Shown piece by piece: positions 15,990 to 41,644 of a DNA stretch of 64,000 nucleotides. The stretch comes from Ideonella benzenivorans (lineage in GTDB: Bacteria; Pseudomonadota; Gammaproteobacteria; Burkholderiales; Burkholderiaceae_C), in NCBI RefSeq assembly GCF_020387415.1, contig NZ_JAGWCB010000007.1, positions 496,001 through 560,000 on the forward strand, given 5' to 3'. The notes under the pieces are model-generated. The model had not been told where the DNA came from and did not search any database. It saw nothing but the letters and a program-made list of their open reading frames with translations. Made by a program: the position numbers and the translations under genes. Position 1 is the stretch's first letter. Each line of letters starts with the position of its first letter.

Positions 15990-16007
15990 ATGAAGGGGAG
16001 TGGGATC

Positions 16008-18527: not shown

Positions 18528-18708
18528 GGGATGGACCTCTGGAACCCTCTGTCGCCGCAGTCCGGCTGGACTGGGAACGCTCCGATGGATGGATATCCAG
18601 CACAGGCTGTCGTGGCAATATACAGAACGTTACGCGTACGGGGGGATCCCTGACGCCAGGGGAGGGCCATCGAATGCCCTGAGTCGAACGAGATCGAAAG
18701 GGCGACGG

Positions 18709-25413: not shown

Positions 25414-26712
25414 TCAGGCGCCCATCACCTCACCCACCCGCTTGGCCACGGCCAGCAGGTCGCGTTCGCGTTGCGGGTGGCCCACCAGTTGCAGGCCAAT
25501 GGGCATGCGGTGCGGGCTGAACAGGCCGGGCACGTTGACGCAGGGGTTGCCCAGCAGGTTCCAGACGCGGCTGAAGGCCGGGTCGCCGGTGGCCGCCAGG
25601 CCCAGCGGGGCTTCGCCCGGGGCGGCCGGCACCAGCAGCGCGTCCACCCCCTGCAGTCGGGTGGCCAGCCAGCTGCGGCCCTGGCGGGCCAGGGCCTGGG
25701 CGTCGTCATAGGCGGCCTGGGTCACGGTCTGGCCGTGGTCCAGCAGCTGCACCAGCGCGGCGCCCATGCGGTCGCGGTGGGCCGCCAGCTCAGCGGCCAG
25801 GCTGCGGCTGGCCTCCCAGGCCATGATGGTCTTCTGCGCTTCGAACAGCGTGGTCAGCAGCGGCGGCAGCGCGGCATCCTCCAGCGGGATGCCGGCCTGG
25901 CCCAGGCGCTGCAGGCCTTCGGCCCAGGCGGCGGCGCCCCCGGCGTCCAGCATCGGCGCCAGGTGGGTGGGGCTGAACAGCAGGCGCGGGCGGGCCACGG
26001 CGGGCAGCGGGGCGAAGTCTTCCTGGTCCAGCGCGGCGCGCAGCAGCTCCAGGTCGTCGGCGCTGCGCGCCATCCAGCCCAGCGTGTCCAGCGAGGGCGA
26101 CAGGCCCTTGATGCCGTCGAGCGGATAGCGGTCGTGCGTGGCCTTCAGAGCCCAGACGCCGCAGTAGGAGGCTGGCCGGATCAGCGAGCCGGCGGTCTGG
26201 GTGCCGAAGGCCAGCGGCACCATGCCGGCGGCCACCGCCGCGGCCGAGCCGCTGGAGGAGCCGCCGGGCGTGCGCGCGGTGTCCCAGGGGTTGGCGGTGG
26301 GGCCGGGCTGGAAGTAGCCGAACTCGGTCGTGACCAGCTTGCCCATCGGCACGCCGCCCTGGGCCTGCACGGCGCGCACCACCCAGGCATCGCGGTCGGG
26401 CTGGTGGCCCTCGTAAATGGGTGAACCGTAGCCGGTGGGCCAGGCGCGGGTGTCGATCAGGTCCTTCAGGCCGATGGCGATGCCCTGCAGCAGGCCGTTG
26501 GCCGGGCGCTCCGCCTGGGCCAGGGGCACCGCGGGGTCGAACGACTGCCAGGCCCGGACGGCCGGTTCCTGCTGCTGAACGCGGTGGATGCAGTCCTGCA
26601 CCGCCTGGCGGGCGCTGAGCTGGCCGGCGCGGATCTGCTGGCGGGTGTCGCAGGCGCTGCGGCAGTGGGCGTCGGCCACGTGGGGTGGCAGAGGGGCGGT
26701 GTCCTGGGGCAT
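25414..26712 (-). CDS. Amidase-signature hydrolase at the 3' end of the iac operon
   Basis: 432 residues with the amidase-signature triad: Lys in GIAIGLKDLID (about 83), a Ser in the GGSSSGSA loop (about 151-158), and the nucleophile Ser in TQTAGSLIRPA (about 174). Hydrolyses amides to acid plus ammonia. It lies 24 nt after a class II aldolase gene in the same operon as iacHABICDEFG. Because indole-acetamide hydrolases (IaaH) belong to this family, release of IAA from its amide is a plausible role, but that is inference. The first genes upstream on the other strand belong to the helicase-nuclease; the gap is 21 nt. Confidence 0.85.
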   Translation of the reverse strand: MPQDTAPLPPHVADAHCRSACDTRQQIRAGQLSARQAVQDCIHRVQQQEPAVRAWQSFDPAVPLAQAERPANGLLQGIAIGLKDLIDTRAWPTGYGSPIYEGHQPDRDAWVVRAVQAQGGVPMGKLVTTEFGYFQPGPTANPWDTARTPGGSSSGSAAAVAAGMVPLAFGTQTAGSLIRPASYCGVWALKATHDRYPLDGIKGLSPSLDTLGWMARSADDLELLRAALDQEDFAPLPAVARPRLLFSPTHLAPMLDAGGAAAWAEGLQRLGQAGIPLEDAALPPLLTTLFEAQKTIMAWEASRSLAAELAAHRDRMGAALVQLLDHGQTVTQAAYDDAQALARQGRSWLATRLQGVDALLVPAAPGEAPLGLAATGDPAFSRVWNLLGNPCVNVPGLFSPHRMPIGLQLVGHPQRERDLLAVAKRVGEVMGA

Positions 26713-26736
26713 GGCAATTGCTTTCGTGGCGGTGGC

Positions 26737-27501
26737 TCAGTGGGCGCGCTTGGCGTGCATCTGGCGCACCATCGCGTTGAAGAACTTCTCCGCGAAGCCA
26801 CTGTCGCGGATCAGCTCGGCCGTCAGGTGGGCGCAGCGCTCGCCAATGCTGTCCGGCAGGGCCACGTTGTCGCCCGGGATGCTGCCGGCGGCCACCTGGA
26901 TCTCGGCGGCGCGCTGCACCGTCCAGAGCAGGAAGAAGGCGCGCGGGATGTCCATCTCGCCGACGGCGATGCCGTGGTTGCGCAGCACCAGGATGTGCTT
27001 CTCACCCAGGCTGGCCAGCATGCGCGGCTTCTCGTCGGCGAACAGCGTGATGCCTTCGAAGGTGTGGTAGCCCACGCGGCCGTAGAGCTGGGCGCCGTAG
27101 AAGTCGTCGTGGCTGAAGCCGGCCCGCTTCAACGCGATGGCCGAGATCGGCGTGGTGTGGGTGTGGATCAGGCAGTGGATGTCCTCGCGCGCGCCGTGGA
27201 TGGCGCCGTGCAGCGCGAAGCCGGCCGGGTTGGCGTCGTAGGGCGAGGGCTCGATCTTGTGGCCGTCGATGTCCACCTTGAGCAGGTTGGCCGGCGTGAC
27301 CTCGTCGTAGTTCAGACCGAAGGGGTTGACCAGGTAATGGTCGGTGCCGGGCAGGCGGGCCGAGATGTGGTTGAAGATGGTCTCGGTCCAGCCGAAGAAG
27401 TCGACCAGGTGGTAGCAGTGGGCCAGTTGCACGCGCAGGGCCCATTCGGCATCGCTGATGTGGGCGGGCTTGAGTTCGGCGGCGTTGGGGGTGAGGTCCA
27501 T
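26737..27501 (-). CDS. Class II aldolase/adducin family protein in the extended iac operon
   Basis: 254 residues. The zinc-binding motif HTHTTP (about 113-115) and a C-terminal His in LVLRNHGIAV (about 176) are present, as is the TIFNHISARLPG N-terminal motif. Fold members act as aldolases or as aromatic-acid decarboxylases (for example PhtC-type). Located 37 nt after a PanE-like gene and 24 nt before an amidase gene, so it is cotranscribed with them. A retro-aldol or decarboxylation step on an oxidised side chain is a possible role; unproven. Confidence 0.85.
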   Translation of the reverse strand: MDLTPNAAELKPAHISDAEWALRVQLAHCYHLVDFFGWTETIFNHISARLPGTDHYLVNPFGLNYDEVTPANLLKVDIDGHKIEPSPYDANPAGFALHGAIHGAREDIHCLIHTHTTPISAIALKRAGFSHDDFYGAQLYGRVGYHTFEGITLFADEKPRMLASLGEKHILVLRNHGIAVGEMDIPRAFFLLWTVQRAAEIQVAAGSIPGDNVALPDSIGERCAHLTAELIRDSGFAEKFFNAMVRQMHAKRAH

Positions 27502-27538
27502 GGGGCGTTCCGGGGTGGGGTGAAGCAGGAGGGCGGCC

Positions 27539-28582
27539 TCAGGCCGCGACGGGGGGAGCGGCCTGAGGCTGGGGCGCCTCGGCCTGGAGACGGGGTTGGC
27601 GCCAGCGCGCCAGGTCGATCAGTGCCCGGGTGGCGGGCATGGGCAGGCCGTAGTGCGCGCCCAGCTCCACCATCGCGTCGCCGATGGCGGCCAGCTCCAG
27701 CGGGCGGCCGCGCTCCAGGTCCTGCAGCATGGAGGTGCGCACCGGGCCCATCGCCGCACCCAGCTGGATGAATTCGATGGGGTCGATCTCCAGCCGCGCG
27801 CCATAGGCGCTGGCGGCCAGCATCACCTCGTGCATCACCGCGCGCACGGTGGGCAGCAGCGAGTCGCGGGTGTAGATCTCTTCGAGCGTGGCGCCGGTGA
27901 CGACCGACAGCGGGTTGGAGGTGAGGTTGGCGATCAGCTTGGTCCAGAGCTTGTCGCGGATGCGCTCCAGCGGCCGGCCTTCGATGCCGGCGCTGCTCAG
28001 CAGCTGGCACACCGCCTGCAGCCGCGGCGCCAGACCGCCGCCCAGTTCACCCAGCATGATCAGGTGCGGGGTGCGTGAGACACACCAGCCCGGTTCGGGC
28101 GACTCGGCGGTGACGAAGACCACCGCGCCCAGCACCCGGTCCATCGGCAGCTGCCGCAGCAGCTGGCCGTCCGGGTCCACGGCCTGCACGGCCTGGCCCT
28201 CGAAGCGCTGGCCGCAGCGGTGGAAGTACCAGAAGGGCACGCCGTTGACCAGCGGCACGACCAGGGCGCCGGGCGCCAGGACCGGCAGCACCTGCGCGCT
28301 CAGCGCGGGCAGGTCCTGGGCCTTGCTGCACAGAAAGACCAGGTCCTGCGGGCCGAGGTCCGCGGCCCGGCTGGCGACGGGCACGCGCACCTCGGTGCGG
28401 CCGTTCAGGTCATCGAGCCGCAGGCCCTGTTCGCGCACGGTCTGCAAGGTGTGACCGCGGGCCAGCAGGCTCACGGTGTGGCCGGCGGCCGCCAGGCGGG
28501 TGGCCAGCGTGCAGCCAATGGCCCCGGCGCCGGCCACCAGGATGCGGGGCCGCTCGGGCAAGTCGGGAGAGAGCGAAGGCAT
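27539..28582 (-). CDS. 2-dehydropantoate 2-reductase-like NAD(P) oxidoreductase in the extended iac operon
   Basis: 347 residues. The Rossmann motif GAGAIGCTLATRLAAAGH is at the N-terminus and the ApbA/PanE C-terminal domain contains DKLWTKLIANLTSNPLSV with a likely catalytic Lys. Family members reduce 2-keto acids with an adjacent hydroxymethyl or similar group. Because it sits 15 nt after iacG, a role with IAA-derived acids seems more likely than pantothenate synthesis, but a true ketopantoate reductase is not ruled out. Confidence 0.83.
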   Translation of the reverse strand: MPSLSPDLPERPRILVAGAGAIGCTLATRLAAAGHTVSLLARGHTLQTVREQGLRLDDLNGRTEVRVPVASRAADLGPQDLVFLCSKAQDLPALSAQVLPVLAPGALVVPLVNGVPFWYFHRCGQRFEGQAVQAVDPDGQLLRQLPMDRVLGAVVFVTAESPEPGWCVSRTPHLIMLGELGGGLAPRLQAVCQLLSSAGIEGRPLERIRDKLWTKLIANLTSNPLSVVTGATLEEIYTRDSLLPTVRAVMHEVMLAASAYGARLEIDPIEFIQLGAAMGPVRTSMLQDLERGRPLELAAIGDAMVELGAHYGLPMPATRALIDLARWRQPRLQAEAPQPQAAPPVAA

Positions 28583-28597
28583 GGGCGGGCGCGGTGT

Positions 28598-29128
28598 TCA
28601 GGCGGCAGCCTGGCCGAGGGCGTGGTAGCCGCGGTTGAAATAGGCCAGTCCTGGCAGGGCCGTTGCCCCGTCGGGCACCTGGATACGCTGCAGTTCGACG
28701 ATGAAGACGCTGTGCGTGCCCACCTCGTGGGTGGCGACGATGCGGCCATCGAGGTTGACCAGGGCGCCGGCCAGCGCCGGGGCGCCGGTGGCCAGGGTCT
28801 GGGTGGGGCAGCGCGCAAAGCGCTCGGCCATCGCCACCTCGCGGTTGGCGAACAGGCCGGAGACATCCTGCTGCGCGGCGCTCAGCACGTTCACGCACAG
28901 CACGCCATTGGCGGCGAAGAAGCGGTGCGCAAAGGACGAGCGGTTCATGCACACCAGCACGGTGGGCGGGCTGTCGGTGACGCTGCAGACGGCCGAGGCG
29001 GTGAAGCCCGCCGGACCCTCGGGGCCATCGGTGGTGATGACGGTGACGGCACCGGGCAGCAGGGCCATGCCGTTGCGGAACTCGCCGACCGAAACCGGCG
29101 AAGAGACAGAGGGGGCGCTCGCGTCCAT
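28598..29128 (-). CDS. iacG: IacG: NAD(P)H-flavin reductase component
   Basis: 176 residues of the flavin-reductase-like FMN-binding fold. Motifs seen are FRNGMALLPGAVTVITT, GFTASAVCSVTDSPPTVLVC and the GTHSVFIVEL region. Such proteins supply reduced flavin to a separate monooxygenase. In the iac pathway IacG is paired with IacA. It is the ninth gene of the HABICDEFG order here. The ATG at 29128 begins the conserved fold; the open frame upstream overlaps iacF and is Arg/Pro-rich. Confidence 0.85.
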   Translation of the reverse strand: MDASAPSVSSPVSVGEFRNGMALLPGAVTVITTDGPEGPAGFTASAVCSVTDSPPTVLVCMNRSSFAHRFFAANGVLCVNVLSAAQQDVSGLFANREVAMAERFARCPTQTLATGAPALAGALVNLDGRIVATHEVGTHSVFIVELQRIQVPDGATALPGLAYFNRGYHALGQAAA

Positions 29129-29148
29129 GGAAGCTCCGGGCGTAGGGT

Positions 29149-30150
29149 TCAGAGGTCCAGCACCAGGCGGGCCGAGCGCGAGCGCGAGCAGCACACCATG
29201 ATCTGGTCGTTGGCGGCGCGCTCCTCGTCGGTGAGGTAGGCGTCGCGGTGGTCGGGCTCGCCTTCGAGCACCGTGCAGGCGCAGGTGCCGCACACGCCCT
29301 GCTCGCAGGAGACGGGCACTTCGATGCCGATGCGCTGGAGTGCGCTCAGCAGGCTCTCGGTGGGGGCCACGTGCACGGTCTTGCCGCTGCGTTGGGCCAC
29401 CACGTCGAAGGCCTGGTTGGGGTTGTCGGCGGCGACCACCGGGGCGCTGAAGTACTCGCGGTGGATCTGCGGCGCGGCCAGGCCAGCGCTGGCGGCCTCG
29501 GCCATCACCCAGTCCATGAAGCCCGCCGGGCCGCAGACGTACAAGTGGCTGCCGGCGGGGGCGGCCTTGACCACCGCGGCGGGCAGCAGCTTGTCGGCCC
29601 CACCGGGCTCCTCGGCCTCGTCGAAGTGCAGCGTGACGCGATCGGCCCAGGGGACCTGGGCCAGCTCGTCGAGGAAGGCGGCCTGGGCCCGGCTGCGAGC
29701 GCAGTAGTGCAGCTCGAAGGAGGCGCCCAGCGCGTGCAGGCGGTGGGCCATCGCCAGCATGGGCGTGATGCCGATGCCGCCACCCACCAGCACGCTGTGC
29801 GGCGCGCGTTCATCGAGCGGGAAGTGGTTGCGCGGGGCGCTGATGGTCAGGCGGGTGCCGGCCTGCAGGGCGGCGTGCACCGCCACCGAGCCGCCGCGCG
29901 AGGCGGGGTCCTTGAGCACGCCCAGGCGGTAGGTCTGAGTGTCGGCCGGGTCGCTGCACAGCGAGTAGGGGCGCACCAGCCCGCCGGGCAGGTGCAGGTC
30001 CACATGGGCGCCGGCGGTGAAGGCGGGCAGGGCGCTGCCGTCGGCGGCGGCCAGGGCCAGCACGGCCACGGCCTGACCTTGCAGGCTGCGGTCGCGCACC
30101 ACCACGTCCAGCGTGGCGGCGGTGGGGGAGGAGAGGGTGGCGGTGCTCAT
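29149..30150 (-). CDS. iacF: IacF: ferredoxin reductase of the Rieske oxygenase (PDR/VanB type)
   Basis: 333 residues. An N-terminal flavin domain (RPYSLCSD), an NAD domain (GGGIGITPMLAMAH) and a C-terminal plant-type 2Fe-2S domain with CEQGVCGTCAC are in the order of phthalate dioxygenase reductase and VanB. It passes electrons from NAD(P)H to the IacCD oxygenase. It lies between iacE (56 nt) and iacG (20 nt) in one operon. Confidence 0.88.
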   Translation of the reverse strand: MSTATLSSPTAATLDVVVRDRSLQGQAVAVLALAAADGSALPAFTAGAHVDLHLPGGLVRPYSLCSDPADTQTYRLGVLKDPASRGGSVAVHAALQAGTRLTISAPRNHFPLDERAPHSVLVGGGIGITPMLAMAHRLHALGASFELHYCARSRAQAAFLDELAQVPWADRVTLHFDEAEEPGGADKLLPAAVVKAAPAGSHLYVCGPAGFMDWVMAEAASAGLAAPQIHREYFSAPVVAADNPNQAFDVVAQRSGKTVHVAPTESLLSALQRIGIEVPVSCEQGVCGTCACTVLEGEPDHRDAYLTDEERAANDQIMVCCSRSRSARLVLDL

Positions 30151-30206
30151 CGGCAGGTTCCTGGGCAGGGCTTGTGGGGCAAGGGTGAGAAGGCGGCGCG
30201 GGGCGG

Positions 30207-30974
30207 TCAGCGCATGAAGATGCCGCCGTTGAAGTCCCAGGCGGCGCCGGTGGCGAAGTCGGCCTCGGCCGAGGCCAGCAGCACCACCATGCGGGCGACG
30301 AAGTGCGGGTTGCCCAGGCGCTGCACGGGGATGGTCTTGACGATCTGGGCCAGGCGCTCGGCCGGCACCGCGGCATGCACCGAGGGCAGGTCCATCGGCC
30401 CCGGGGCCACCGCATTGACGGTGACGCCCTTGGCGCCCAGCTCGCGGGCAAAGATCTTGGTCAGCGTCAGGATGCCGGCCTTGGACGAGGCGTAATGCGC
30501 GCCCGAGGCCGTGCCACCGTTCTGCCCGGCCAGCGAGGCCAGGTTGACGATGCGGCCGTAGCCGGCCTCGCCCATCGCCGCGCCAAACACCTGGCAGCCC
30601 AGGAAGCAGCCGCGCAGGTTGATGTCCAGCACGCGGGAGAACTCCTCCGGGCTGATCTGCATCACCGGGGTGGTCAGCGTCAGCGCGGCGTTGTTCACCA
30701 GCACCTGCGGCAGGCCCCAGCCGGCCTTCAGGTGGGCCAGGGCGGCCTCGAAGTCGGCCTTGTTCAGCACGTTCAGGGCCAGGCCCTGCGCGGTGGTGCC
30801 GCTGGCGTCCAGGGCCTGGGCGGCGGCCTGGGCCCCCGCCGCATCCACGTCGGTCAGCAGCACGCGGTAGCCAGCGCCATGCAGTTCGCTGGCGATCACC
30901 TGGCCCAGGCCGGCGGCCGCGCCAGTGACGACCGCAATGGGCTGGCCAGCCGTCTCGGAAGGCATGTTCGTCAT
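30207..30974 (-). CDS. iacE: IacE: short-chain dehydrogenase/reductase
   Basis: 255 residues. The SDR fold is clear: TGAAAGLGQVI cofactor motif near residue 18, NNAALTL around 92, and the catalytic Y-x-x-x-K in HYASSKAG (Tyr about 162, Lys about 166). In the IAA pathway IacE acts with IacA to form dioxindole-3-acetate. It follows iacD by 13 nt. Confidence 0.88.
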   Translation of the reverse strand: MTNMPSETAGQPIAVVTGAAAGLGQVIASELHGAGYRVLLTDVDAAGAQAAAQALDASGTTAQGLALNVLNKADFEAALAHLKAGWGLPQVLVNNAALTLTTPVMQISPEEFSRVLDINLRGCFLGCQVFGAAMGEAGYGRIVNLASLAGQNGGTASGAHYASSKAGILTLTKIFARELGAKGVTVNAVAPGPMDLPSVHAAVPAERLAQIVKTIPVQRLGNPHFVARMVVLLASAEADFATGAAWDFNGGIFMR

Positions 30975-30987
30975 AGCGGGGCGGCCT

Positions 30988-31464
30988 TCAGAAGATGTAG
31001 CCGACGGCGCTGAGCGTGTCGACGGAGTTGATCATGCGCACGACCTTGCGCTGGATGCGCCAGCTGTCGCCGTGGGCGACCAGGGTCCAGGTGACGTCGG
31101 CGGTGTGCTGGTGGAACCGGTCCTTGCGGAAGTCCCGCAGGTCCTGGGCGCCGCGCAGGGTGACGGTGTCGCCGTCCTGGCTGATGACGCGCAGGCGCGA
31201 GACGCTGCGCACGGTGCGCGCGGGCGGCTGGGTGGAGACCGATTCGCCGCTGGTCAGGCGCTCCACGCGCAGACGGCGCATGGTGGCGTTGTCGTTGGCG
31301 TAGTTGAGGGTGTTGTCGAAGTCGGTGGTGTCCGGGTCGATCGGCACGATGTACTGGCCGGCGGGGACCCACAGGTCCAGCCAGGCGGCGAATTCGCCGT
31401 GGTCGAGCATGTCGGCCTCGGCCCAGACAAAGGCGGTGACGCTGTTCAGCAGGGGCAGGTTCAT
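30988..31464 (-). CDS. iacD: IacD: aromatic-ring-hydroxylating dioxygenase beta subunit
   Basis: 158 residues of the NTF2-like fold of Rieske oxygenase small subunits. Seen are the N-terminal helix VTAFVWAEADMLDHGEF, then a WLDLWVPAGQYIVPID strand region and VTWTLVAHGDSWRI near the C-terminus. It assembles with IacC into the oxygenase. Gap to iacC is 52 nt. Confidence 0.88.
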   Translation of the reverse strand: MNLPLLNSVTAFVWAEADMLDHGEFAAWLDLWVPAGQYIVPIDPDTTDFDNTLNYANDNATMRRLRVERLTSGESVSTQPPARTVRSVSRLRVISQDGDTVTLRGAQDLRDFRKDRFHQHTADVTWTLVAHGDSWRIQRKVVRMINSVDTLSAVGYIF

Positions 31465-31516
31465 GGTGTGAGGGGATGTGTTGCGATGTGAAGAGGACGG
31501 TCAGCGGGCGCGGGCC

Positions 31517-32803
31517 TCACTCGGCGGTCATCAGCTTCTTCCACTGGCGGTAGGCGGCGCGCATGCCGGTCTCGGCGCTGACATCGCTGGCGCGGCCGTC
31601 CTCGGTCACGCGCTCGCCAGGCAGGCCGCGGTTGACCATGACCCAGAGGTTCTTGCCGGCCTGTGCGCCCTTCTGCACCCGCTCCCAGGCTTCCGAGTCA
31701 TCGGGCGTGCCGAAGCCCATCGGGCCCTGGAAGTGCTCGTGCAGGCGCAGCCGGGCCTGGTTGCACACCGCCGGTCCGCCGTCCATCACGATGGCCGCGT
31801 GGTGGATCTCGGTCTCGGTCACCGAGACCGGCTGCAGCACGCGGAAGAAGGCCATCGAGCAGGCGATGTTGGGGAACAGGTTCAGGTTGAAGCCGGTGCC
31901 ACCGACGGCACGCACCAGGCGGCGCACCTTGGCCTCGTCATGCCCTTCGTCACGCAGCGCCTGGGCGAGCTCTTCGAAGCGTTCGGGGATGGGGGCGTCC
32001 AGGTTGGCCTCCAGGTCCACCAGCGAGGGGATCATCACCATCACGCTGTGGCCGTTGCCCAGGTCCTCCACATAGCCCGGGCCCTTGACGAAGTCGAAGA
32101 CCTGCTTGGTCTCTTCGTCGATCGAGCTCAGGAAACTCTTGTGCACCAGCGGGAAGTGGTAGGCATCGGTGGTGTTCTCCAGCTGGATCTTCCAGTTGCC
32201 GGGGAAGCGGAAGCGGTGCTCGCCGGCCACCTTGACCGGGTAGCCGCCGGCCTGCTTCATGAACAGGTCGATCCACTTCTTGGCCGGGCCCAGCCAGTCC
32301 ACCAGCGGGGCGATGTCGTCGCGGAAGGTGGCGAAGACCATGCCGTTGTAGGTCTCCACGCGCAGGCTCACCAGCGGGAACTCGCCCTTGTCCAGGCAGT
32401 CACCGTAGCTCTCGGGGAAGGGCACGCCGCGCAGCGAGCCGTCCAGGGCGTAGGCCCAGCCGTGGTAAGGGCAGACGAAGCTGGCGGTCTTGCCCTTCTT
32501 GTGCTCGCAGACGGTGGCGGCGCGGTGGCGGCAGCGGTTGAGCAGCACATGGATGGCGTTCTTGCGGTCGCGCACCACGATCACCGGCTCCATGCCGACC
32601 CAGTGGGTCTTGAAGCTGCCGGGCTCGGGCAGCTCGCTCTCGTGGGCGACCCAGACCCAGCAGTTGCGGAAGATCTTGTCCATCTCCTGGTCGAAGATGG
32701 CCGGGTCGTTGTAGAGCGAGGTGTGGACGCGGTCCTCGCGGACCAGCTCGCCCAACTCGCGGGCGGAGCGCTGAATCTGGATCGGGGCAGTGGGGGCGTT
32801 CAT
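31517..32803 (-). CDS. iacC: IacC: Rieske non-haem iron dioxygenase alpha subunit
   Basis: 428 residues. The Rieske 2Fe-2S motif is complete (C91, H93, C111, H114, in CRH and CPYHGW). The mononuclear iron site shows the NTTDAYHFPLVH segment with D213, H216 and H221. With IacD and reductase IacF it oxygenates the opened or modified indole ring on the way to catechol. The start MNAPTAPIQI is the one matching the family; 19 upstream in-frame codons overlap the iacI end. Confidence 0.92.
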   Translation of the reverse strand: MNAPTAPIQIQRSARELGELVREDRVHTSLYNDPAIFDQEMDKIFRNCWVWVAHESELPEPGSFKTHWVGMEPVIVVRDRKNAIHVLLNRCRHRAATVCEHKKGKTASFVCPYHGWAYALDGSLRGVPFPESYGDCLDKGEFPLVSLRVETYNGMVFATFRDDIAPLVDWLGPAKKWIDLFMKQAGGYPVKVAGEHRFRFPGNWKIQLENTTDAYHFPLVHKSFLSSIDEETKQVFDFVKGPGYVEDLGNGHSVMVMIPSLVDLEANLDAPIPERFEELAQALRDEGHDEAKVRRLVRAVGGTGFNLNLFPNIACSMAFFRVLQPVSVTETEIHHAAIVMDGGPAVCNQARLRLHEHFQGPMGFGTPDDSEAWERVQKGAQAGKNLWVMVNRGLPGERVTEDGRASDVSAETGMRAAYRQWKKLMTAE

Positions 32804-32831
32804 GGTGTGCGTGGGCAAAGAGGAAAAGGGA

Positions 32832-33416
32832 TCAGCGGGCGGGCACCGGCAGCGGCGCATCGCTGCGCCAGTGCGTCACCGGGCGGCTGAGCAGGTTCTC
32901 GGTCTCGAAGTGGGCGATGCGCCACTGGCCGTCGGTGTCGCGGCGCATCTGCAGCGTGAGCTGCGCGGCGTTCAGGTGCGAGGCGCCGCTGGCGAAGGTG
33001 GAGGTCTGCAGCATCGTCCACTCGGCGCGGGCGGTGTCCGGCCCGGTGGGGGTGATGAGCTCCGAGCAGAGGAAGTGGGCGTTGAAGGCGAAGTGGGGCG
33101 GGCGTTGCGGGCCCTCCTCGCCGGGCAGGGTGCCGCGGTAGGCGCCGAGCATGGCGCCGATGGCGGCGCGGCCGCGGTGACCCCCGAAGCTCTGGCCGTA
33201 GCGGGCGCCCTTGCCGGCCCAGATGGCGTCCTCGGTGAAGCAGTCCCGCAGAGCGTCCATCGGGGTCGAGGCATCAAGCCGGTCGCACAAGGCCATGTAG
33301 CGGTGCACGCAGGCGCGGATGGCGGCGGCGTCCTCGAAGCGCTCCAGACGGTCTTCCAGTTCAACCAGCCGCTGGGCCAGGCCGGCCAGCTCGACAGGGA
33401 GGGGAGCAGGGGTCAC
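32832..33416 (-). CDS. iacI: IacI: SnoaL/NTF2-like protein (probable GTG start)
   Basis: 194 residues when read from a GTG. An N-terminal helical segment (ELAGLAQRLVELEDRLERFE) precedes an NTF2-like fold holding RYMALCDRLD and later MDALRDCFTEDAIW. GTG is chosen because GGAG lies 6 nt upstream and it starts 15 nt after the iacB stop; an ATG at 33506 would overlap iacB by 76 nt. A role in IAA degradation is known genetically for the family; the precise step is not established. Confidence 0.78.
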   Translation of the reverse strand: MTPAPLPVELAGLAQRLVELEDRLERFEDAAAIRACVHRYMALCDRLDASTPMDALRDCFTEDAIWAGKGARYGQSFGGHRGRAAIGAMLGAYRGTLPGEEGPQRPPHFAFNAHFLCSELITPTGPDTARAEWTMLQTSTFASGASHLNAAQLTLQMRRDTDGQWRIAHFETENLLSRPVTHWRSDAPLPVPAR

Positions 33417-33430
33417 AGCGGGCTCCGTGC

Positions 33431-33811
33431 TCAGGCCGGCTTCTTCAGGCTGGGCGGCACCACCAGCTCGCGGCCGACGCGGGCCTCGATCTTGGCGTAC
33501 TTCCACAGCTTGTACGGGCCCTCGCCGACCACGACGGTGCGCAGCAGGTTGCAGGCCGCGTGCACAGTTTGGATGTCGGGCACATCGGCCAGGATGTAGC
33601 AGGTCCAGGGCCAGCTGGTCGAGGGGCCGACCATGGACAGATCGTCGTCGATGTTGCCCAGCACGGTCACGCCGGGCAGCTCGGCGATGCCATTGAAGAG
33701 TTCGCCGCAGGCCAGCCAGACGGCCTTGGCCTCATCCGGGGCTGCATCGAAGAAGTTCTGGTTGATGCCAATGCAGAACAGCGCGCGCATCTGGGGGGTG
33801 GGGGTGCTCAT
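33431..33811 (-). CDS. iacB: IacB: small protein of the IAA pathway
   Basis: 126 residues, a compact alpha/beta protein with MRALFCIGINQNF at the N-terminus and a GPYKLWKYAKIEARV tail. It looks like a dimeric alpha/beta-barrel (EthD/YciI-like) protein, by size and pattern only. Its place between iacA and iacI matches known iac operons. In the pathway IacB acts after the IacA/IacE steps; its chemistry is less well settled. Confidence 0.8.
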   Translation of the reverse strand: MSTPTPQMRALFCIGINQNFFDAAPDEAKAVWLACGELFNGIAELPGVTVLGNIDDDLSMVGPSTSWPWTCYILADVPDIQTVHAACNLLRTVVVGEGPYKLWKYAKIEARVGRELVVPPSLKKPA

Positions 33812-33849
33812 GGAAGTCCTTTCAGGTCAGCAAAAGAGGGGGCGCGGGC

Positions 33850-35025
33850 TCACAGGTAGCCGGGCAGCGGCGGCAGGCCGAACAGCATCGCGCCCGCGTT
33901 CTGGTAGGTGATGTCGCCCATGAAGGCGTGCTGGGTCAGCACCTGTGCGTCGCGCACCTGCTGCGACAGCGGGCTGCTGTGGTAGACGCCGGTCATGCCG
34001 GCCTGCATCTGGATGGCACGGGTCACTTCGGCGCTGGTGCGGGCGGCGTGGGTGGAGGACAGGCGCAGCAGGCTGGTCTGTTCCGGCGTCACCTCGTCGC
34101 CCTTCTCCAGCGTGGCCCAGGCGTCGTCGATGGCCTCGTAGAAGAAGGCGCGGGCGGCCCGCAGCTGGGCCTCGGCGCGGGCGATCTCGATCTGCACCTG
34201 CGGCCGGTCGGCCAGGCGCGGCGCACCGGTGACCGAGATGCGGCCGGTGGCCAGGCCGCGCAGTTCCTCGATGGCGGCGCGGGCGATGCCCAGCCCCACC
34301 ACCGTCAGCACCTGGGTGGCGAAGGACAGCGAGGGGTAGCGGAACATCGGCTCCTCGCGCTGTGACTTGCTGCCGCGCACGAAGGTCCATTCCTCCGGCA
34401 CGATCACCTTGTCGACCACCAGGTCATGGCTGCCGGTGCCGGCCAGGCCGCTGACGTCCCAGGCCATCTCGATGCGGGCCTGGCTGCGCGGCATCACCGC
34501 CATGCGCGGCAGGCCGCCCTTGTCGCCTTCGAACGGCGCGATGCCCACGCCGATCACGTCGGCGCCCATGCAGCCGCTGGAAAAGCTCCAGCGCCCCGAC
34601 ACCTCGTAGCCGCCGGCCACCTTGGGCGCGCGCTGCGGGGGGAAGATGCCACCGGCAAAGGTCACGTCGGGGCCGCCGGCATAGACCTGGGCCAGGGTGG
34701 CGGGCGGCAGCGCGGCCAGGTAGGTCACACCCATGCCGAAGCTGGCCACCCAGCCGGCCGAGCCGTCGGCCTGGGAAATCGTCTCGATCAGCTCGCAGAA
34801 TTCGTGCGCCGACTTCTGCTCACCGCCCAGCGCGGTCGGCACCAGCGCGCGGTAGACGCCGACCTCCTTGAAGCGCTGGATGATGTCCGGCGAGATGAAG
34901 CGTTGTTGCTCGAACTCCTGCCGGCGGCGGCGGATGTCGCTCAACAGCAGGTCCAGCGTGGTGCCGGAATCAGGCCCCGTGGGGGCGGTGGACGCACCGG
35001 GGTGCGTGGCGGTGAGGGAGGTCAT
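33850..35025 (-). CDS. iacA: IacA: flavin-dependent indole-3-acetate monooxygenase (acyl-CoA dehydrogenase fold)
   Basis: 391 residues from MTSLTATHPG. The acyl-CoA dehydrogenase-like fold is seen in RFKEVGVYRALVPTALGG and in GYEVSGRWSFSSGCMGAD, followed by a helical C-terminus. Related group D flavoprotein monooxygenases (HsaA-like) use reduced flavin from a partner. IacA with IacG oxidises IAA at C2 as the first step. Its ATG overlaps the iacH stop (ATGA). Confidence 0.88.
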   Translation of the reverse strand: MTSLTATHPGASTAPTGPDSGTTLDLLLSDIRRRRQEFEQQRFISPDIIQRFKEVGVYRALVPTALGGEQKSAHEFCELIETISQADGSAGWVASFGMGVTYLAALPPATLAQVYAGGPDVTFAGGIFPPQRAPKVAGGYEVSGRWSFSSGCMGADVIGVGIAPFEGDKGGLPRMAVMPRSQARIEMAWDVSGLAGTGSHDLVVDKVIVPEEWTFVRGSKSQREEPMFRYPSLSFATQVLTVVGLGIARAAIEELRGLATGRISVTGAPRLADRPQVQIEIARAEAQLRAARAFFYEAIDDAWATLEKGDEVTPEQTSLLRLSSTHAARTSAEVTRAIQMQAGMTGVYHSSPLSQQVRDAQVLTQHAFMGDITYQNAGAMLFGLPPLPGYL

Positions 35026-36170
35026 GCGGGTTCTCCAAGGGAGGCGTGCAGGTCGAGCTGCTGGCTCAGCGAACGAGCCACGGAACACAGCCATTCGTCG
35101 GCGCCGTGGCGGGCCACCAGCTGCAGGCCCACGGGCAGGCCGTCGGCGTTGTCCAGCGGCAGCGTGATGGCCGGGTGGCCGGAAAGATTGAAGGGCCGCA
35201 CCAGCGCCGTCATCGACACGGCGGCACTGGTGTCGGCAGCGTCCTCCAGCCGCGGCGGGGGCGAGGCCAGCGTGGGCAGGGCCAGCACGTCGCACTGCGA
35301 CAGGGCGGCATCCACCTCGGCGCGGAAGGCGCGTCGCACGGCTTCGGCCTCGGCCAGCTGGGCATCGGTGGTCTGGCCGGCCCGCTGCAGCCGGGTGGCC
35401 ACGTCCTGGCCCATGCGGCCATCGGCCAGCAGCGGGGACAGGGCGATCCAGTTCTCGCGGTTGATCACCGCCAGGCCGGCGCGGTAGGCGTCCTCGAACA
35501 GCGGCAGCGTGACCGGGTGCAGGCGGTGGCGGGCCCGGGCCAGGGCTTCGTGCACCGCGTTGCGGGCCTGGGCGTCGCAGGCCACGTCCACCAGGCCGAT
35601 GTGCAGCGAGGGCGGCACCACCGGCAAGGCGTGGAAGTTCGGCACCATGGCCTGCATGGCCGCGATCAGGCTGTCCATGTCACGGGCGATCGGGCCCACG
35701 CAGTCCAGCGAGCTGCGTTCGGGCATCACGCCGCGCCGGCTCACCCGGCCGAAGCTGGGCTTGAGCCCGAACACGCCGCAGCAGGCGGCTGGCGTGCGCA
35801 CCGAGCCCCCGGTGTCGGTGCCCAGGGCCATCGGCACCAGGCCCTGGGCGACGGCCACCGCCGAGCCGCAGGAAGAGCCCCCGGGCACCCGGTCGGGCCA
35901 GCGCGGGTTGCGTGGGGTGCCGGTCCAGTGGTTGATGCCCGTGGTGCCGTAGGCCAGCTCATGCAGGTTGGTCTTGCCGGTCAGCCGCCAGCCGGCGGCC
36001 AGCAGGCGGGCCACCACCTCGGCATGGGCTGTTGCGGGTGCGGCCTCGGTCAGGGTGCGGCTGCCGGCCCGGGTGGGGGCGCCCGCCACGTCCAGCGTGT
36101 CTTTGACCATGAAGCACGGGCCCTCGGCGGGGCCGAGTTGGAGCGGGAGGACGACGATGTCGGTGGACAT
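35022..36170 (-). CDS. iacH: IacH: amidase-signature enzyme, first gene of the iac operon
   Basis: 382 residues. Amidase signature intact: Lys in FMVKDTLDVAG (about 36), VPGGSSCGSAVA loop, and DTGGSVRTPAA with the nucleophile Ser. It leads the operon, about 60 nt from the predicted transcription start, and couples to iacA by a 4-nt overlap. In iac clusters IacH is thought to act on a lactam/amide intermediate. No strong Shine-Dalgarno precedes this ATG, so an in-frame GTG 39 nt upstream is an alternative. Confidence 0.85.
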   Translation of the reverse strand: MSTDIVVLPLQLGPAEGPCFMVKDTLDVAGAPTRAGSRTLTEAAPATAHAEVVARLLAAGWRLTGKTNLHELAYGTTGINHWTGTPRNPRWPDRVPGGSSCGSAVAVAQGLVPMALGTDTGGSVRTPAACCGVFGLKPSFGRVSRRGVMPERSSLDCVGPIARDMDSLIAAMQAMVPNFHALPVVPPSLHIGLVDVACDAQARNAVHEALARARHRLHPVTLPLFEDAYRAGLAVINRENWIALSPLLADGRMGQDVATRLQRAGQTTDAQLAEAEAVRRAFRAEVDAALSQCDVLALPTLASPPPRLEDAADTSAAVSMTALVRPFNLSGHPAITLPLDNADGLPVGLQLVARHGADEWLCSVARSLSQQLDLHASLGEPA

Positions 36171-36643: not shown

Positions 36644-36713
36644 AGTGCCTCCCGCGGTGTGCGGCCTACCGTGTCCTTCCACCCCTTGGCGCCCAGAGCG
36701 CACGGAGTTCCCG

Positions 36714-37868
36714 ATGTCCCTTCCCCGTTTCGTCCGTCCCCTGCTGCAGGGCTGTCTGCTGGCCTCGTTCGCCCTGGCCGCGCAAGCCCAGATCAAGGTG
36801 GGGGTGGTGACCTCGTCCACCGGCCCGGTGGCCCTGGTCGGCCTGCCGCAGAAGAAGACCGTGCCGCTGCTGCCGACCAAGGTGGCGGGCCAGACGGTCC
36901 AGTACATCTCGTTGGACGATGGGAGCGACCCGACCGCCTCGGTGTCGGCCTTCAAGAAGCTGATCAACGAAGACAAGGTCGACGCCATCATCGGCCCGAG
37001 CGGCTCGCCGGCCGCGATGGGCGTGATCCAGTTCGCCGCGGAAGCCGGTGTGCCCATGCTGGCCCCGGTGGGCACGGCCGCCGTGGTGGTGCCGATGAGC
37101 GAGCAGAAGAAGTGGGTCTTCAAGACCACGCAGAACGACGAGATCATCGCCCGCGCCCTGGTTCAGCACATGAGCGCCACCAAGATCAAGACGGTGGGCT
37201 TCATCGGCACGGCCGATCCCTACGGCGACAACTGGATGCGGGTCTTCTCCGCGCTGGCCGGCAAGGCGGGCATCAAGGTGGTGGGCTCCGAGCGCTTCCA
37301 GCGCCAGGACACCTCGCTGACCGCCCAGGCGCTCAAGCTGATGGGCGCCTCGCCCGATGCGATCCTGGTGGCGGCCCCGGGCAGCTCGTCCGTCCTGCCC
37401 AGCACCACGCTGCACGACGTGGGCTACAAGGGCAAGGTCTACCAGACCCACGGCGCGGCGCTGGACGACTTCCTGCGCCTGGGGGGCAAGAAGGTGGAAG
37501 GCACGATCCTGGCCGCCAGCGCGATGCTGGTGCTCGACCAGGTGCCGGCCAGCAACCCGACCAAGAAGGTGGCCACCGAGTATGTGAAGGCCTACGAGAA
37601 GCTCAACGGCAGCAAGCCGGCGACCTTTGGTGCCAATGTGTATGACGCGGGCCTGCTGCTGCAGGCGGCCATTCCGGTGGCGCTGAAGTCCGGCAAGCCG
37701 GGCACCGCCGCCTTCCGCACTGCGCTGCGCGATGCGCTGGAGCAGATCAAGGAGCTGCCGGCCACCCAGGGCGTCTACACGATGACGCCGGCCGACCACA
37801 GTGGCTTCGACGACCGCGGCCGCGAGATGATCGTGGTGAAGAACGGTCGCTGGACGCTGCTGAAGTGA
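36714..37868 (+). CDS. LIV-type ABC importer substrate-binding protein
   Basis: 384 residues. Signal peptide to about AQAQ (residue 26), then a type I periplasmic binding fold with QIKVGVVTSSTGPVAL, GSDPTASVSAFKKLI and IIGPSGSPA. First gene of a transporter operon divergent from iacH, so an aromatic acid such as IAA is a likely ligand; branched-chain amino acids or other aromatics remain possible. GGAG sits 8 nt before the ATG. Confidence 0.88.
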   Translation: MSLPRFVRPLLQGCLLASFALAAQAQIKVGVVTSSTGPVALVGLPQKKTVPLLPTKVAGQTVQYISLDDGSDPTASVSAFKKLINEDKVDAIIGPSGSPAAMGVIQFAAEAGVPMLAPVGTAAVVVPMSEQKKWVFKTTQNDEIIARALVQHMSATKIKTVGFIGTADPYGDNWMRVFSALAGKAGIKVVGSERFQRQDTSLTAQALKLMGASPDAILVAAPGSSSVLPSTTLHDVGYKGKVYQTHGAALDDFLRLGGKKVEGTILAASAMLVLDQVPASNPTKKVATEYVKAYEKLNGSKPATFGANVYDAGLLLQAAIPVALKSGKPGTAAFRTALRDALEQIKELPATQGVYTMTPADHSGFDDRGREMIVVKNGRWTLLK

Positions 37869-37885
37869 GCGGGATGGACTGAGGC

Positions 37886-38935
37886 ATGAACGCGCAGATC
37901 GCATTGCTGCTGGGACAAGATGGCGTGACCAACGGCGCGATCTACGCGCTGCTGGCCCTGTCCATCGTCCTGGTCTTCACCGTCACCCGGGTGCTGCTGG
38001 TGCCGCAGGGGGAGTTCGTCACCTTCGGCGCCATGACCATGGCCGGCCTGCAGGCCGGCCAGCCGGTGCGCCTGGCCTGGCTGCTGCTGGCCCTGGCCGT
38101 GCTGCGCCTGGTCTGGCGGCTGTGGGCGCTGCGCCCGGGCCTGCGCGCCGATCCTCAGCCCCCGCTGTCGGTCTGGGATGCCGCGGGCCCGGTCTATGCC
38201 CTGGTCCTCTGGGGCATCGCCGACCGGGTGCCCGGCCAGAACTGGCCGATGGCGCTGCAGGTGCTGTTCACGCTGGCGCTGGTGGTGCCACTGGGGCCCT
38301 GGCTGTATGACCTGTGCTTCCGGCCCATCGCCGCCGCGCATGGCCTGGTGCTGCTGATCGTCTCGATCGCGCTGCATGTGGTGCTGGTCGGGCTGGCGCT
38401 CTGGATGTTCGGCGCCGAAGGCGCGCGCACCCTGCCGTTTTCCGAGGAGGGCCTGGACCTGGGGCTGCTCAACGTCAACGCCCAGTCGCTGTGGGTGCTG
38501 GCCGCCACGCTGGCGCTGATGGTCGGGCTGTTCGTGTTCTTCGAGCGCACGCTGCGGGGCAAGGCCTTGCGGGCCACCGCGGTGAGCCGCCTGGGGGCGC
38601 AGCTGATGGGCATCTCGCCCACCGCCGCCGGCCGCACCTGCTTTGCCCTGGCGGCCTTCATCGGCGGCCTGTCGGGCACGCTGATCGCGCCGCTCACCAC
38701 GCTGTACTACGACTCCGGCTTCCTGATCAGCCTGAAGGGCTTCGTCGGGGCCGTGGTTGGCGGTCTGGTCAGCTTCCCCGTGGGCGCGCTGGGCGCGCTG
38801 TCGGTGGGGCTGGTCGAGGCCTATTCGACCTTCTGGGCCAGTTCCTACAAAGAGGTCATCGTGTTCACCTTGATCCTGCCCTTCCTGCTGTGGCGCTCGC
38901 TGACCAGCAAGCACCATGAGGAGGACCGCGCATGA
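37886..38935 (+). CDS. LivH-like ABC permease
   Basis: 349 residues, polytopic. Family landmarks are GVTNGAIYALLALSIVLVFTV at the start, QGEFVTFGA, and the later FFERTLRGKALRATAVS permease loop and GLSGTLIAPLTT. It starts 17 nt after the binding protein and overlaps the next gene by 4 nt. It forms half of the membrane channel of the importer. Confidence 0.88.
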   Translation: MNAQIALLLGQDGVTNGAIYALLALSIVLVFTVTRVLLVPQGEFVTFGAMTMAGLQAGQPVRLAWLLLALAVLRLVWRLWALRPGLRADPQPPLSVWDAAGPVYALVLWGIADRVPGQNWPMALQVLFTLALVVPLGPWLYDLCFRPIAAAHGLVLLIVSIALHVVLVGLALWMFGAEGARTLPFSEEGLDLGLLNVNAQSLWVLAATLALMVGLFVFFERTLRGKALRATAVSRLGAQLMGISPTAAGRTCFALAAFIGGLSGTLIAPLTTLYYDSGFLISLKGFVGAVVGGLVSFPVGALGALSVGLVEAYSTFWASSYKEVIVFTLILPFLLWRSLTSKHHEEDRA

Positions 38936-40803
38936 GCACCGCCCTGCCCATGAATTCCTCTGCTGAGACCTCCAAGACCGCGCGCCGCCCGCTGGGCCTC
39001 ACGGCCCGGCGCACGGTCGGCCCGGTGTTGCTGCTGGCCTTGTTGCTGGCCGTGCCCTGGCTGCCCACCTTCTGGGTCAACCTGCTCAACAACATCGGTC
39101 TGGCGGCCATGGCCACCCTGGGCCTGGTGCTGCTGACCGGCGTGGCCGGCATGACCAGCTTCGGCCAGGCCGCCTTCATCGGCCTGGGGGCCTACACCTG
39201 TGCCTGGCTGACTGTCGGGGCCGACGTGCCGGGCTGGCTGGCACCCATCGCCGGCTCGCCCTGGCTGGCCCTGCCCGCCGGCCTGCTGGTGACCCTGGCG
39301 GTGGCGGCCGGCCTGGGCGCGGTGACGCTGCGCCTGTCGGGCCACTACCTGCCGCTGGGCACCATCTGCTGGGCCCTGGCGCTGTTCTACCTGTTCGGCA
39401 CGCTGGAGTCGCTGGGGGCCCACTCCGGTCTGACCAACCTGCCGGCCCTGCAGATCGGCACCTGGAGCCTGGACCAGCCGGCCGACATGGCCTGGCCGAT
39501 CTGGCTGCTGCTGGGGCTGGCGCTGGTGCTCTCGCGTCACCTGCTGGATTCGCGCAGCGGCCGCGCGCTGCGTGCCCTCAACGGCGGCCAGGCGATGGCC
39601 GAGTCGATGGGCGTGCCGGTGTTCCGCACCAAGATGGCGGCCTTCATCCTCTCGGCGCTGCTGGCCGGCGTCTCGGGCTGGCTGTATGCCTGCAACCAGC
39701 GCTTCGTCAGCCCGGCGCCGTTCAGTGTGACCGCGGGCATCGACGTGATGTTCATGGCCCTCATCGGCGGCGTGGGCCACCTGTGGGGCGCGGTGGCCGG
39801 CGCGGTGGTGGTCACGCTGGGCCGCAATGGGCTGCAGGACTGGCTGCCCAGCCTGCTGGGCCAGAGCGGCAACTACGAGTCCGTCGTCTTCGGCCTGCTG
39901 ATCATCGCCTTGATGCACCGCGCCCCCAACGGCCTGTGGGGCGCCATCCACCGCCGCTGGAGCCGGCGCGTCGATCCGCGGCGGGCCCAGCCTGCGGCCT
40001 TGCCGGCCGCCGCCCCCTTGCCGCGCCGGGTTCAGCCCACCCGCGGCCAGCCGGTGCTGGAGGTGCGCGGCCTGACCCGGCGCTTTGGCGGCCTGGTGGC
40101 CAACAAGGAGATCGACCTGACGCTGCACGCCGGCGAGATCCTGGCCGTCATCGGCCCGAACGGTGCGGGCAAGAGCACGCTGTTCAACCAGCTCTCCTGC
40201 GTGGACCATCCCACCTCGGGCGAGGTGAAGTTCCTGGGGCAGAGCGTGCTGGGCTGGCAGCCCCGGCGCATGGCCGCTGCTGGCCTGTCGCGCACCTTCC
40301 AGCACGTCAAGCTGCTGCCCAGCATGAGCGTGCTGGACAACGTGGCCATCGGTGCCCACCTGCGCGGCCGCGCCGGCCTGTTGCGCAGTGCGCTGCGGCT
40401 GGACCGGGCGGAGGAGGCCCGCCTGCTGGGCGAAGCCCAGCGCCAGCTGGAGCGCGTGGGCCTGGGCGCGCTCTCGCATGTGGAAGCCGGCAGCCTGGCC
40501 CTGGGTCAGCAGCGCCTGGTGGAGATCGCCCGCGCGCTGTGCGCCGACCCCTCGGTGCTGCTGCTTGACGAGCCGGCCGCCGGCCTGCGCCTGCAGGAGA
40601 AGCAGGCCCTGGCCGAGCTGCTGCGCAAGCTGCGCACCGAGGGCATGGCCGTGCTGCTGGTGGAGCACGACATGGACTTCGTGATGAACCTGGTGGACCG
40701 CGTGGCGGTGATGGTGTTCGGCGAGAAGATCACCGAGGGCCTGCCCGCCGAGGTGCAAAGCCATCCCAAGGTGCTGGAAGCCTACCTGGGAGTTGACCTG
40801 TGA
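38932..40803 (+). CDS. LivM-LivG fusion: permease joined to ATPase of the ABC importer
   Basis: 623 residues. Residues 1-340 are a LivM-like permease ([17 protein letters not shown] and later [19 protein letters not shown]). After a Pro/Ala linker the ATPase has Walker A GPNGAGKS (408-415), a signature LALGQQR in place of LSGGQ, and Walker [11 protein letters not shown]. Fusion of these subunits is known in beta- and alphaproteobacteria. The reading frame is continuous, so it is not a sequencing break. Confidence 0.9.
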
Positions 40804-41585
40804 GCGCCGAGATGACCGCTGAAACCGCTGCCGAGCACCCGCTGCTGCTGGAGGTCGAGAACCTCTCGGTGGCCTACGGCAAGATCGAGGCCCTGTCCGG
40901 CGTGAGCCTGCGGGTGCGCCAGGGCGAGATCGTCACCGTGATCGGCCCCAACGGTGCCGGCAAGAGCACGTTGCTGGGCGCCCTGATGGGGGCGCTGCCG
41001 GCGCGCGACGGCCGCATCACGCTGGCCGGCCGGGTGCAGGGCGCACTGCAGGTGGAAGCCCGGGCTGAGCAAGGCCTGGCCCTGGTGCCCGAAACCCGTG
41101 CGCTGTTCGCCAGCATGACGGTGGAGGACAACCTGCGCCTGGGGGCCTACCGCTTCCGCGGCGAGGGTGCGGCCCGCCACGCGCAGGCCTTGGACGAGGT
41201 CTATGCGCTGTTCCCGCGCCTGCAGGAACGCCGCCGCCAGGAGGCCGCGACGCTGTCGGGTGGCGAGCGCCAGATGCTGGCGCTGGGCCGTGCCCTGATG
41301 GGCCGGCCGCAGTTGCTGATGCTCGACGAGCCCAGCCTGGGCCTGGCACCGCTGATCGTGCGTGACATCTTCCGCATCATCGTGCAGTTGCGCGCGCAGG
41401 GCGTGTCCATTCTGCTGGTCGAGCAGAACGCCCGCGCGGCCCTGCATGTGGCCGACCACGCCTATGTGCTGGAGCTGGGCCGCGTGGCCATGGAAGGGCC
41501 GGCCGCCGCGCTGGCCCACGACCCGCGCGTGATCGAGGCCTATCTGGGGGCCCAGGCCAAGCACCAGGAACTGCTGACCACCTGA
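40800..41585 (+). CDS. LivF-like ABC ATPase (GTG start)
   Basis: 261 residues. Walker [10 protein letters not shown], signature [10 protein letters not shown], Walker [13 protein letters not shown], and the H-loop region are intact. The GTG overlaps the previous stop as GTGA; an in-frame ATG at 40812 would shorten it by four residues. It is the second ATPase of the importer. Confidence 0.9.
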
Positions 41586-41644
41586 GGCCGTTCGAGGGGC
41601 CGATCGGCCCTCCCTCCGTTTCCCCACCGTTGGAGAGTTTGAGC

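Follow-up and report, generated by a model that had tools for sequence, protein, structure and literature searches.

Introduction

The core iac genes convert the auxin indole-3-acetic acid (IAA) to catechol, as is established for the family. Here we analyze an iac cluster of Ideonella benzenivorans, found in a stretch of 64,000 nucleotides (positions 496,001 to 560,000 of contig NZ_JAGWCB010000007.1, hereafter the window), in which this already known core is followed at its 3' end by genes for a PanE-type reductase (PanE), a class-II-aldolase/adducin-fold protein (Ald2) and a second amidase (Ami2). The iac cluster of Pseudomonas putida 1290 has all nine core genes, as does the window, and takes IAA to catechol; unlike in the window, a class II aldolase and a reductase are entered for it as "n.f." in the available part of the source (PMC11373566). 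Enterobacter soli LF7 has the same nine genes in the same order, HABICDEFG, and its cluster is listed, in the portion of the report at hand, as iacHABICDEFG-mfs-pcaIJD-catBCA, i.e., without the PanE and Ald2 genes that the window has (PMC8383072). In Marinomonas, as in the window, a class II aldolase, a 2-dehydropantoate 2-reductase, a Liv-type transporter and a MarR regulator stand beside iacABICDEFG; in contrast to the window, the excerpted description gives one amidase only, the aldolase and reductase are on the transporter side, and some strains have an alpha-hydroxy-acid enzyme (PMC11373566). This amidase is called IacH in the same text (28.6% identical to that of P. putida; PMC11373566) and is probably the Ami2-like gene that we see in M. 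transparens (locus L093). The iad clusters of Variovorax, Achromobacter and Bradyrhizobium, which take IAA to anthranilate, resemble the window in their Rieske-type degradation, MarR control and ABC transport, as far as the accessible accounts describe them; their markers are iorB/iotA, those of iac clusters being iacA, iacB and iacI, which the window has (PMC9613470, in part).

The steps from dioxindole-3-acetate to catechol and the role of IacH are left open in the available sections of the literature (PMC7225977, PMC9613470, PMC11373566). An earlier note on this DNA, made from the sequence alone, had proposed that the three additional genes were an undescribed extension of the iac operon. 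This holds in part, since an aldolase and a reductase, together with a divergent IacH, are already in print for Marinomonas, in the accessible text without a function (PMC11373566). No published function for the PanE-Ald2 pair was found in the open-access literature, and the same searches gave no earlier account of the exchange of the amidase across lineages, the state with two amidases, the tight link between the pair and iac, or the proposed reading of Ald2 as an Fe(II) oxygenase.

A Twelve-Gene iac Cluster

The cluster is made up of twelve intact open reading frames (ORFs), all on the minus strand, running from 36170 down to 25414 in the order iacHABICDEFG-PanE-Ald2-Ami2 and all ending in a TGA stop codon. 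The first, iacH (35022..36170; Pfam Amidase), starts with the ATG at 36170, the longest ORF being opened by a GTG at 36209, and its stop is overlapped by the ATG of iacA (33850..35025), an acyl-CoA-dehydrogenase-type monooxygenase (Pfam Acyl-CoA_dh) with matches of 45–80% identity in other iac loci. Pfam was run on the core genes other than iacB (33431..33811) and iacI (32832..33434, start approximate), which were identified by their tblastn conservation with other iac loci; IacI is SnoaL-like, and a SnoaL fold is given for it in the part of the source available (PMC7225977). They are followed by iacC and iacD, coding for the alpha subunit of a Rieske dioxygenase (31517..32803; Rieske and Ring_hydroxyl_A) and the beta subunit (30988..31464; Ring_hydroxyl_B), by the short-chain dehydrogenase gene iacE (30207..30974; SDR), the ferredoxin-type reductase gene iacF (29149..30150; Fer2/NAD_binding) and the flavin reductase gene iacG (28598..29128; Flavin_Reduct). 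Beyond iacG, after gaps of 15, 37 and 24 nt respectively, are the genes for PanE, a 2-keto-acid reductase by type (27539..28582; ApbA/ApbA_C and NF005089), Ald2 (26737..27501; Aldolase_II and NF005451) and Ami2, a malonamidase-E2-like amidase (25414..26712; Amidase, with malonamidase E2 as best PDB match). ORF calls, Pfam and tblastn confirm in this way that the nine core genes stand in the recognized order with the three others close behind.

The markers iacA, iacB and iacI are present beside adjacent iacC and iacD, as in iac-type clusters, and neither iorB nor iotA was found among the twelve genes or in the divergent operon (by Pfam, and by tblastn for the identity of iacB and iacI). The closest relative of IacC among the matches listed is that of Sphaerotilus hippei, at 92% identity, which puts the cluster far beyond chance; there is hardly any doubt that the twelve-gene cluster, that of a Sphaerotilaceae-like bacterium, is real. 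A sigma-70 scan gave a single promoter-like site over the stretch that it covered, at 36270-36242, before the start of iacH. Two terminator-like sites were found, against a mean of 3.0 in shuffled sequence; one is within iacA, the other is at the very 3' end of iacI, its tail lying between iacI and iacC, and the same scan gave none in the three gaps after iacG. A single transcript across the twelve genes is plausible.

The PanE-Ald2 Pair Is Tied to iac Clusters

The window proteins were mapped onto 91 other iac loci, of which 79 came from one scan with the IacC alignment (best 80 matches) and 12 were further loci. Presence or absence was judged over ca. 10 kb on either side of iacC, some of these stretches ending at contig ends. 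In addition, 60 iac genomes were searched whole, namely those of 48 of the 79 scan loci (two in one genome), of the 12 further loci, some of which may be of the same species as scan-locus genomes, and of the window itself; about two thirds of the 31 scan loci outside this set belong to Acinetobacter, Pseudomonas and enterobacteria. Ald2 was found at 56% identity or more in 31 of the 60 genomes, a figure from a hand-picked set that is not a frequency, and the next matches were at 48% or less. A tally of contigs and positions placed it in or beside the iac cluster in 26 of these 31 genomes and on another contig or far from iac in the remaining five (the genomes of L067, L088, L097, L098 and L121). 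Across 398 sampled genomes of the phylum (iacC at E up to 1e-100, Ald2 at E up to 1e-75), iacC was present in 11 and an Ald2 ortholog in three, all of them among the 11, and none of the 387 iac-negative genomes had an ortholog. With the window's genome excluded, Ald2 is present in two of 10 iac-positive and in none of 387 iac-negative genomes (p = 5.7e-4). At 17 paralogous Ald2 places (38–47% identity) the gene contexts were mixed.

Of 32 distinct Ald2 genes, 25 have a PanE gene as immediate neighbor in the same orientation; PanE was not seen in the examined stretch around Ald2 in L095, L125, L131 and L139. As the earlier note held, these genes belong with iac, and the absence beside iacG in every relative that it named as a refutation is not observed. 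The pair directly follows iacG in Azohydromonas australica (L047), and in Sphaerotilus hippei (L046) it comes after the iac genes with one TctC-type gene between it and iacG. Elsewhere it is found in many iac clusters, after LivF (G178, G483, L064, L078, L093, L107, L050, L086, L079, L077 and L063; G058 has the order LivF-FMN dehydrogenase-PanE-Ald2), before iacH (L091) or inside the cluster, as in the acetic acid bacteria L108, L109 and L111. We can say with high confidence that PanE and Ald2 form a pair that is optional and linked to iac clusters. A trio conserved in other iac loci was rejected: PanE and Ald2 recur as a pair, and Ami2 travels separately, in 10 loci that are a largely different set. 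With Ald2 present in about half of the hand-picked iac genomes, the pair adds an element without explanation to a trait of plant-microbe interaction.

Probable Replacement of IacH by Malonamidase-Like Amidases

IacH alone is present in 78 of the 91 other loci and an Ami2-like amidase alone in 10, three have neither and none has both, leaving the window as the sole locus with IacH and Ami2 together. In two of the three loci without an amidase (L052 and L097) the sequence is truncated by the end of a contig, and the L097 genome carries IacH on another contig; the third, G584, is without IacH and has an Ami2-like gene 217 kb from iac. The exclusion extends to whole genomes. No IacH ortholog was found in the 10 Ami2-like genomes searched whole (the nine behind the 10 loci, and G584), where the best match was at 40% or less, and two genomes of other species that have IacH gave 61 and 67% in the same search. 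In the reverse direction, 13 IacH-type genomes besides that of the window were searched and 12 gave no Ami2 match at 1e-60, the exception being G707, with a match at 42% on another contig.

The 22 IacH proteins in the tree, that of the window included, form one clade (support 99/97) with Ami2 outside it. The Ami2 of the window groups with those of Azohydromonas and Curvibacter (100/100), and the Ami2-like amidases of Marinomonas/Marinobacterium and of the acetic acid bacteria stand apart from this group. A single iac-dedicated family of Ami2-like amidases is ruled out by the tree, as forcing the Ami2-like rows into one clade was rejected (p-AU 3.4e-5, for a group named after the first tree), and on the IacC tree the type of amidase changes five times, or six when G584 is counted. 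The motif QTxxSxxRP is common to 11 of 11 Ami2-like rows, to malonamidase E2 and to most background amidases of that group. Among solved enzymes, malonamidase E2 (PDB 1ock) comes closest to Ami2 in sequence, with 256.8 bits over 404 residues. The Ami2-like amidases of iac loci are malonamidase-E2-like and have at least two, probably three, separate origins, and the economical reading is that IacH has been repeatedly replaced by them, both kinds having been kept here.

We consider it likely that Ami2 carries out the IacH step, i.e., that it would be a second enzyme for the amide hydrolysis normally performed by IacH. The fact that both genes are intact in the window weighs against this, as it could mean two different substrates. 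The earlier note had suggested for the amidase the release of IAA from amide conjugates, and in its favor the best NCBIfam model by score is indeed the indoleacetamide hydrolase PRK07488, and the amidase-family Lys and Ser positions, which we take to be the catalytic Lys and the nucleophile, are present. However, Ami2 reaches only 196.6 bits with this model, far from its cut-off of 532, its nearest solved enzyme is malonamidase E2, and across loci it substitutes for IacH rather than adding to it. We therefore gave up the conjugate or indoleacetamide hydrolase as leading view, and an IaaH-like enzyme freeing IAA from indole-3-acetamide or IAA-amino-acid conjugates seems very improbable. Because Ami2-like amidases repeatedly replace IacH, a role in freeing IAA from conjugates is not expected, and Ami2 is probably not an IAA-conjugate hydrolase. 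The repeated replacement of IacH by malonamidase-like amidases is a concrete clue to the IacH step, and a genome holding both amidases allows their direct comparison by complementation. As a separate observation, the iacH match of a Roseobacter locus (L104:6790-7942) runs over two overlapping frames, likely a frameshift or pseudogene.

Predicted Chemistry of PanE and Ald2

PanE has the ApbA and ApbA_C domains of the ketopantoate reductase family and scores 292.8 bits against NF005089 (cut-off 223). Its Lys215, Asn113, Ser284 and Glu296, presumably the catalytic residues of these reductases, are invariant across all 31 rows compared, among which some genes occur twice, and on this ground PanE should be a working 2-keto-acid reductase. 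Ald2 scores 270.3 bits against NF005451 (cut-off 207), and its three-His metal site (His113, His115 and His176) is intact in 33 of 33 rows. In the same 33 rows, in which one gene is counted twice, Gly94 occupies the place of Glu73 of Escherichia coli FucA in a motif alignment made by hand. The metal-binding His and catalytic Glu73 of FucA are as given in the sections available of PMC5216522 and PMC11841055. Ald2 thus has the three His and lacks the Glu of true FucA-like class II aldolases. The same combination, three His ligands and no Glu73, is described for pyruvic oxime dioxygenase (POD), an enzyme that requires Fe(II) (PMC5216522, in part). The predicted model of Ald2 (mean pLDDT 85.3) ranks closest in fold to 3ocr and adducin, then to POD and TqaM, 4xxf and NovR, and then to bacterial fuculose aldolases. 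The Fe(II) enzymes POD, TqaM and NovR have a fold like that of Ald2 (TM 0.75–0.83 on the query), one of the matched TqaM entries contains D-3-phenyllactate, and CloR/NovR act on an arylpyruvate by oxidative decarboxylation and then treat the alpha-hydroxy acid so formed in the same way (PMC13111500). Ald2 probably uses Fe(II); its reaction is a prediction. The suggestion of the earlier note that reductase and aldolase act on keto- or hydroxy-acids is consistent with all this.

Neighboring genes point to aromatic keto acids as the substrate class of the pair. Genes for aromatic amino acid transaminases above the NCBIfam cut-off adjoin PanE-Ald2 in L091, L129 and the paralogous pair L182, others are near it in L087 and L130, and L047 has a 42% match. 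The order in L091 is transaminase-PanE-Ald2-iacH and so on, and as far as Ald2 the frames overlap by 4 nt. Genes for FMN alpha-hydroxy-acid dehydrogenases are present in eight iac loci, and all eight have Ald2 in the genome, compared with 30 of 59 overall (p = 0.0026).

What Does the Pair Do?

The reading that we tentatively favor is that PanE-Ald2 funnels indole-pyruvate or indole-lactate into IAA, which would then be degraded by iac; it is favored because transaminase, dehydrogenase and PanE have indole-3-pyruvate and indole-3-lactate in common, and a NovR-like step on indole-3-lactate gives IAA. The core genes would take IAA to catechol as in the rest of the family, and the pair would handle an aromatic alpha-keto or alpha-hydroxy acid. 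PanE may reduce indole-3-pyruvate to indole-3-lactate, the direction being presumed, and Ald2, probably with Fe(II), may oxidatively decarboxylate the alpha-hydroxy acid to IAA, with substrate and metal both predicted, for iac to consume. We know of no bacterial route to IAA by PanE reduction and Ald2-type decarboxylation of indole-3-lactate. The full version, an auxin-making front end within an auxin-degrading operon, acting through (R)-indole-3-lactate and an Fe(II) oxygenase, combined with the exchange of IacH and the keeping of both amidases here, is rather unlikely as a whole. If indole-lactate or indole-pyruvate is indeed turned into IAA by the pair, the part of the plant indole pool open to auxin degraders would extend beyond IAA itself, and a front end combined with transaminases and FMN hydroxy-acid dehydrogenases would let tryptophan and indole-lactate be mineralized through IAA.

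A number of observations weigh against this proposal. The links to FMN dehydrogenases and transaminases were noticed post hoc and their statistics ignore kinship, neither kind of gene is among the 30 window genes run through Pfam, and the transaminase model PRK09257 may, we assume, also cover aspartate aminotransferases. The nearest solved structure to Ald2, 3ocr, is without a stated function, adducin is also nearer than the Fe(II) oxygenases, and identity with POD, TqaM and NovR is only 19–25%. The yeast protein 4xxf, labeled as a fuculose aldolase, shares the AGF motif with Ald2, is above POD by sequence (64.2 vs. 59.8 bits) and lies between POD/TqaM and NovR by fold; since it has AGF and ranks alike, an oxygenase cannot be told from a lyase by the missing Glu or the ranking alone. 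The presence of Ald2 changes 22 times on the IacC tree (built without the rows of L094, L105 and L111), no fewer than with shuffled labels (mean 19.6), and these changes rule out a clade-specific trait. Finally, six iac genomes (L051, L055, L058, L060, L069 and L099) have the same transporter binding protein without Ald2, and the identity of binding proteins to that of the window is 68–75% without Ald2 and 65–81% with it. As they are equally similar in both cases, they give no sign of a new imported substrate, and a tie of Ald2 to one transported substrate was discarded.

The main rival is that PanE, Ald2 and Ami2 work together on the C4 fragment that remains after departure of the ring as catechol. 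An angular attack of IacCDF on dioxindole-3-acetate would free the ring nitrogen in the form of a carboxamide. Catechol and the mono-amide of oxaloacetate would then come from a retro-aldol cleavage, by Ald2 or spontaneous, and Ami2 or IacH would hydrolyze the mono-amide, the keto acid being reduced by PanE. The malonamidase-type motif in all of the repeatedly recruited Ami2-like amidases fits such a small carboxylated amide, and the tie of the pair to iac is accommodated equally well. Available sections of the literature suggest an angular dioxygenation for a related step in Pseudomonas LY1 (PMC8383072) and a release of ammonia by IacH (PMC11373566), and describe ThnF as a class II aldolase of tetralin breakdown (PMC6563040). 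However, the catechol step must run without Ald2 in 29 of the 60 iac genomes, plain oxaloacetate as product would need no special enzymes, and the FMN alpha-hydroxy-acid dehydrogenases are left unexplained, as is a transporter-linked copy of the pair away from iac (L128); we regard this scheme as doubtful. It is less likely still that the pair is a module of carboxylate catabolism that arrived with transporter genes, its substrate being an organic acid other than an indole. The pair does often come directly after a transporter gene (LivF in at least 12 loci, TctC in L046, DctM in L128), some paralogous pairs (Ald2 at 42–46%) are beside TRAP or TctC genes, and Ald2 is commoner where a Liv-type transporter is at the iac locus (16 of 22 genomes vs. 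15 of 38 without; p = 0.017). Against it, the 387 iac-negative genomes hold no orthologs, and in the window, L047, L091 and L108 the pair is inside or next to iac and apart from the transporter.

Surroundings of the Cluster

Divergent from the iac genes is an operon on the plus strand with an ABC transporter (36645..41585; a substrate-binding protein, LivH, a LivM-LivG fusion and LivF, from Pfam and synteny), of the type that stands before PanE-Ald2 in a number of other iac loci. A MarR-type regulator (42716..43270, plus strand; Pfam MarR), the probable IacR, is 71% identical to the MarR of the Sphaerotilus iac locus. The transporter operon also contains a gene for a TauD/TfdA-family 2-oxoglutarate dioxygenase (41630-42634, plus strand), with a relative (66%) in the transporter operon of the iac locus L107, and the enzyme possibly acts on auxin-like compounds.

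As to the fate of catechol, the genome codes for one clear catechol 2,3-dioxygenase (441.5 bits, cut-off 320.2), its gene being on the contig to which the window belongs, and gave no match to an intradiol dioxygenase, so catechol could go by meta cleavage. A catechol 2,3-dioxygenase-like gene was also seen within the iac cluster of Marinobacterium ramblicola (L100:16518-17441), a possible meta-cleavage link. Farther along the window is a second aromatic pathway, mhp-like in appearance (48898-60682, plus strand), with genes for an FMN reductase, an ABC transporter, an alpha/beta hydrolase, an FAD monooxygenase, an FAA hydrolase, an acetaldehyde dehydrogenase, an HOA aldolase and FadL/TodX, as well as a weak extradiol-type match at about 53979-54641.

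On the other side, a gene whose longest ORF codes for a protein of 2312 aa with DUF4011, AAA, REase_MTES_1575 and DUF3320 domains (18454-25392, plus strand) lies in a region where GC is lower (0.62 at 20–24 kb). It is convergent with the iac operon, with 21 nt between its end and Ami2, and is preceded by a gene for a DabA-type inorganic carbon transporter subunit (15990-18527, plus strand). Among the other loci, the region of G590 (L033-L034) has two iacC-iacD pairs ca. 4 kb apart, and in one of the copies the matches to iacA, iacC and iacG are split or partial, suggesting a decaying duplicate.

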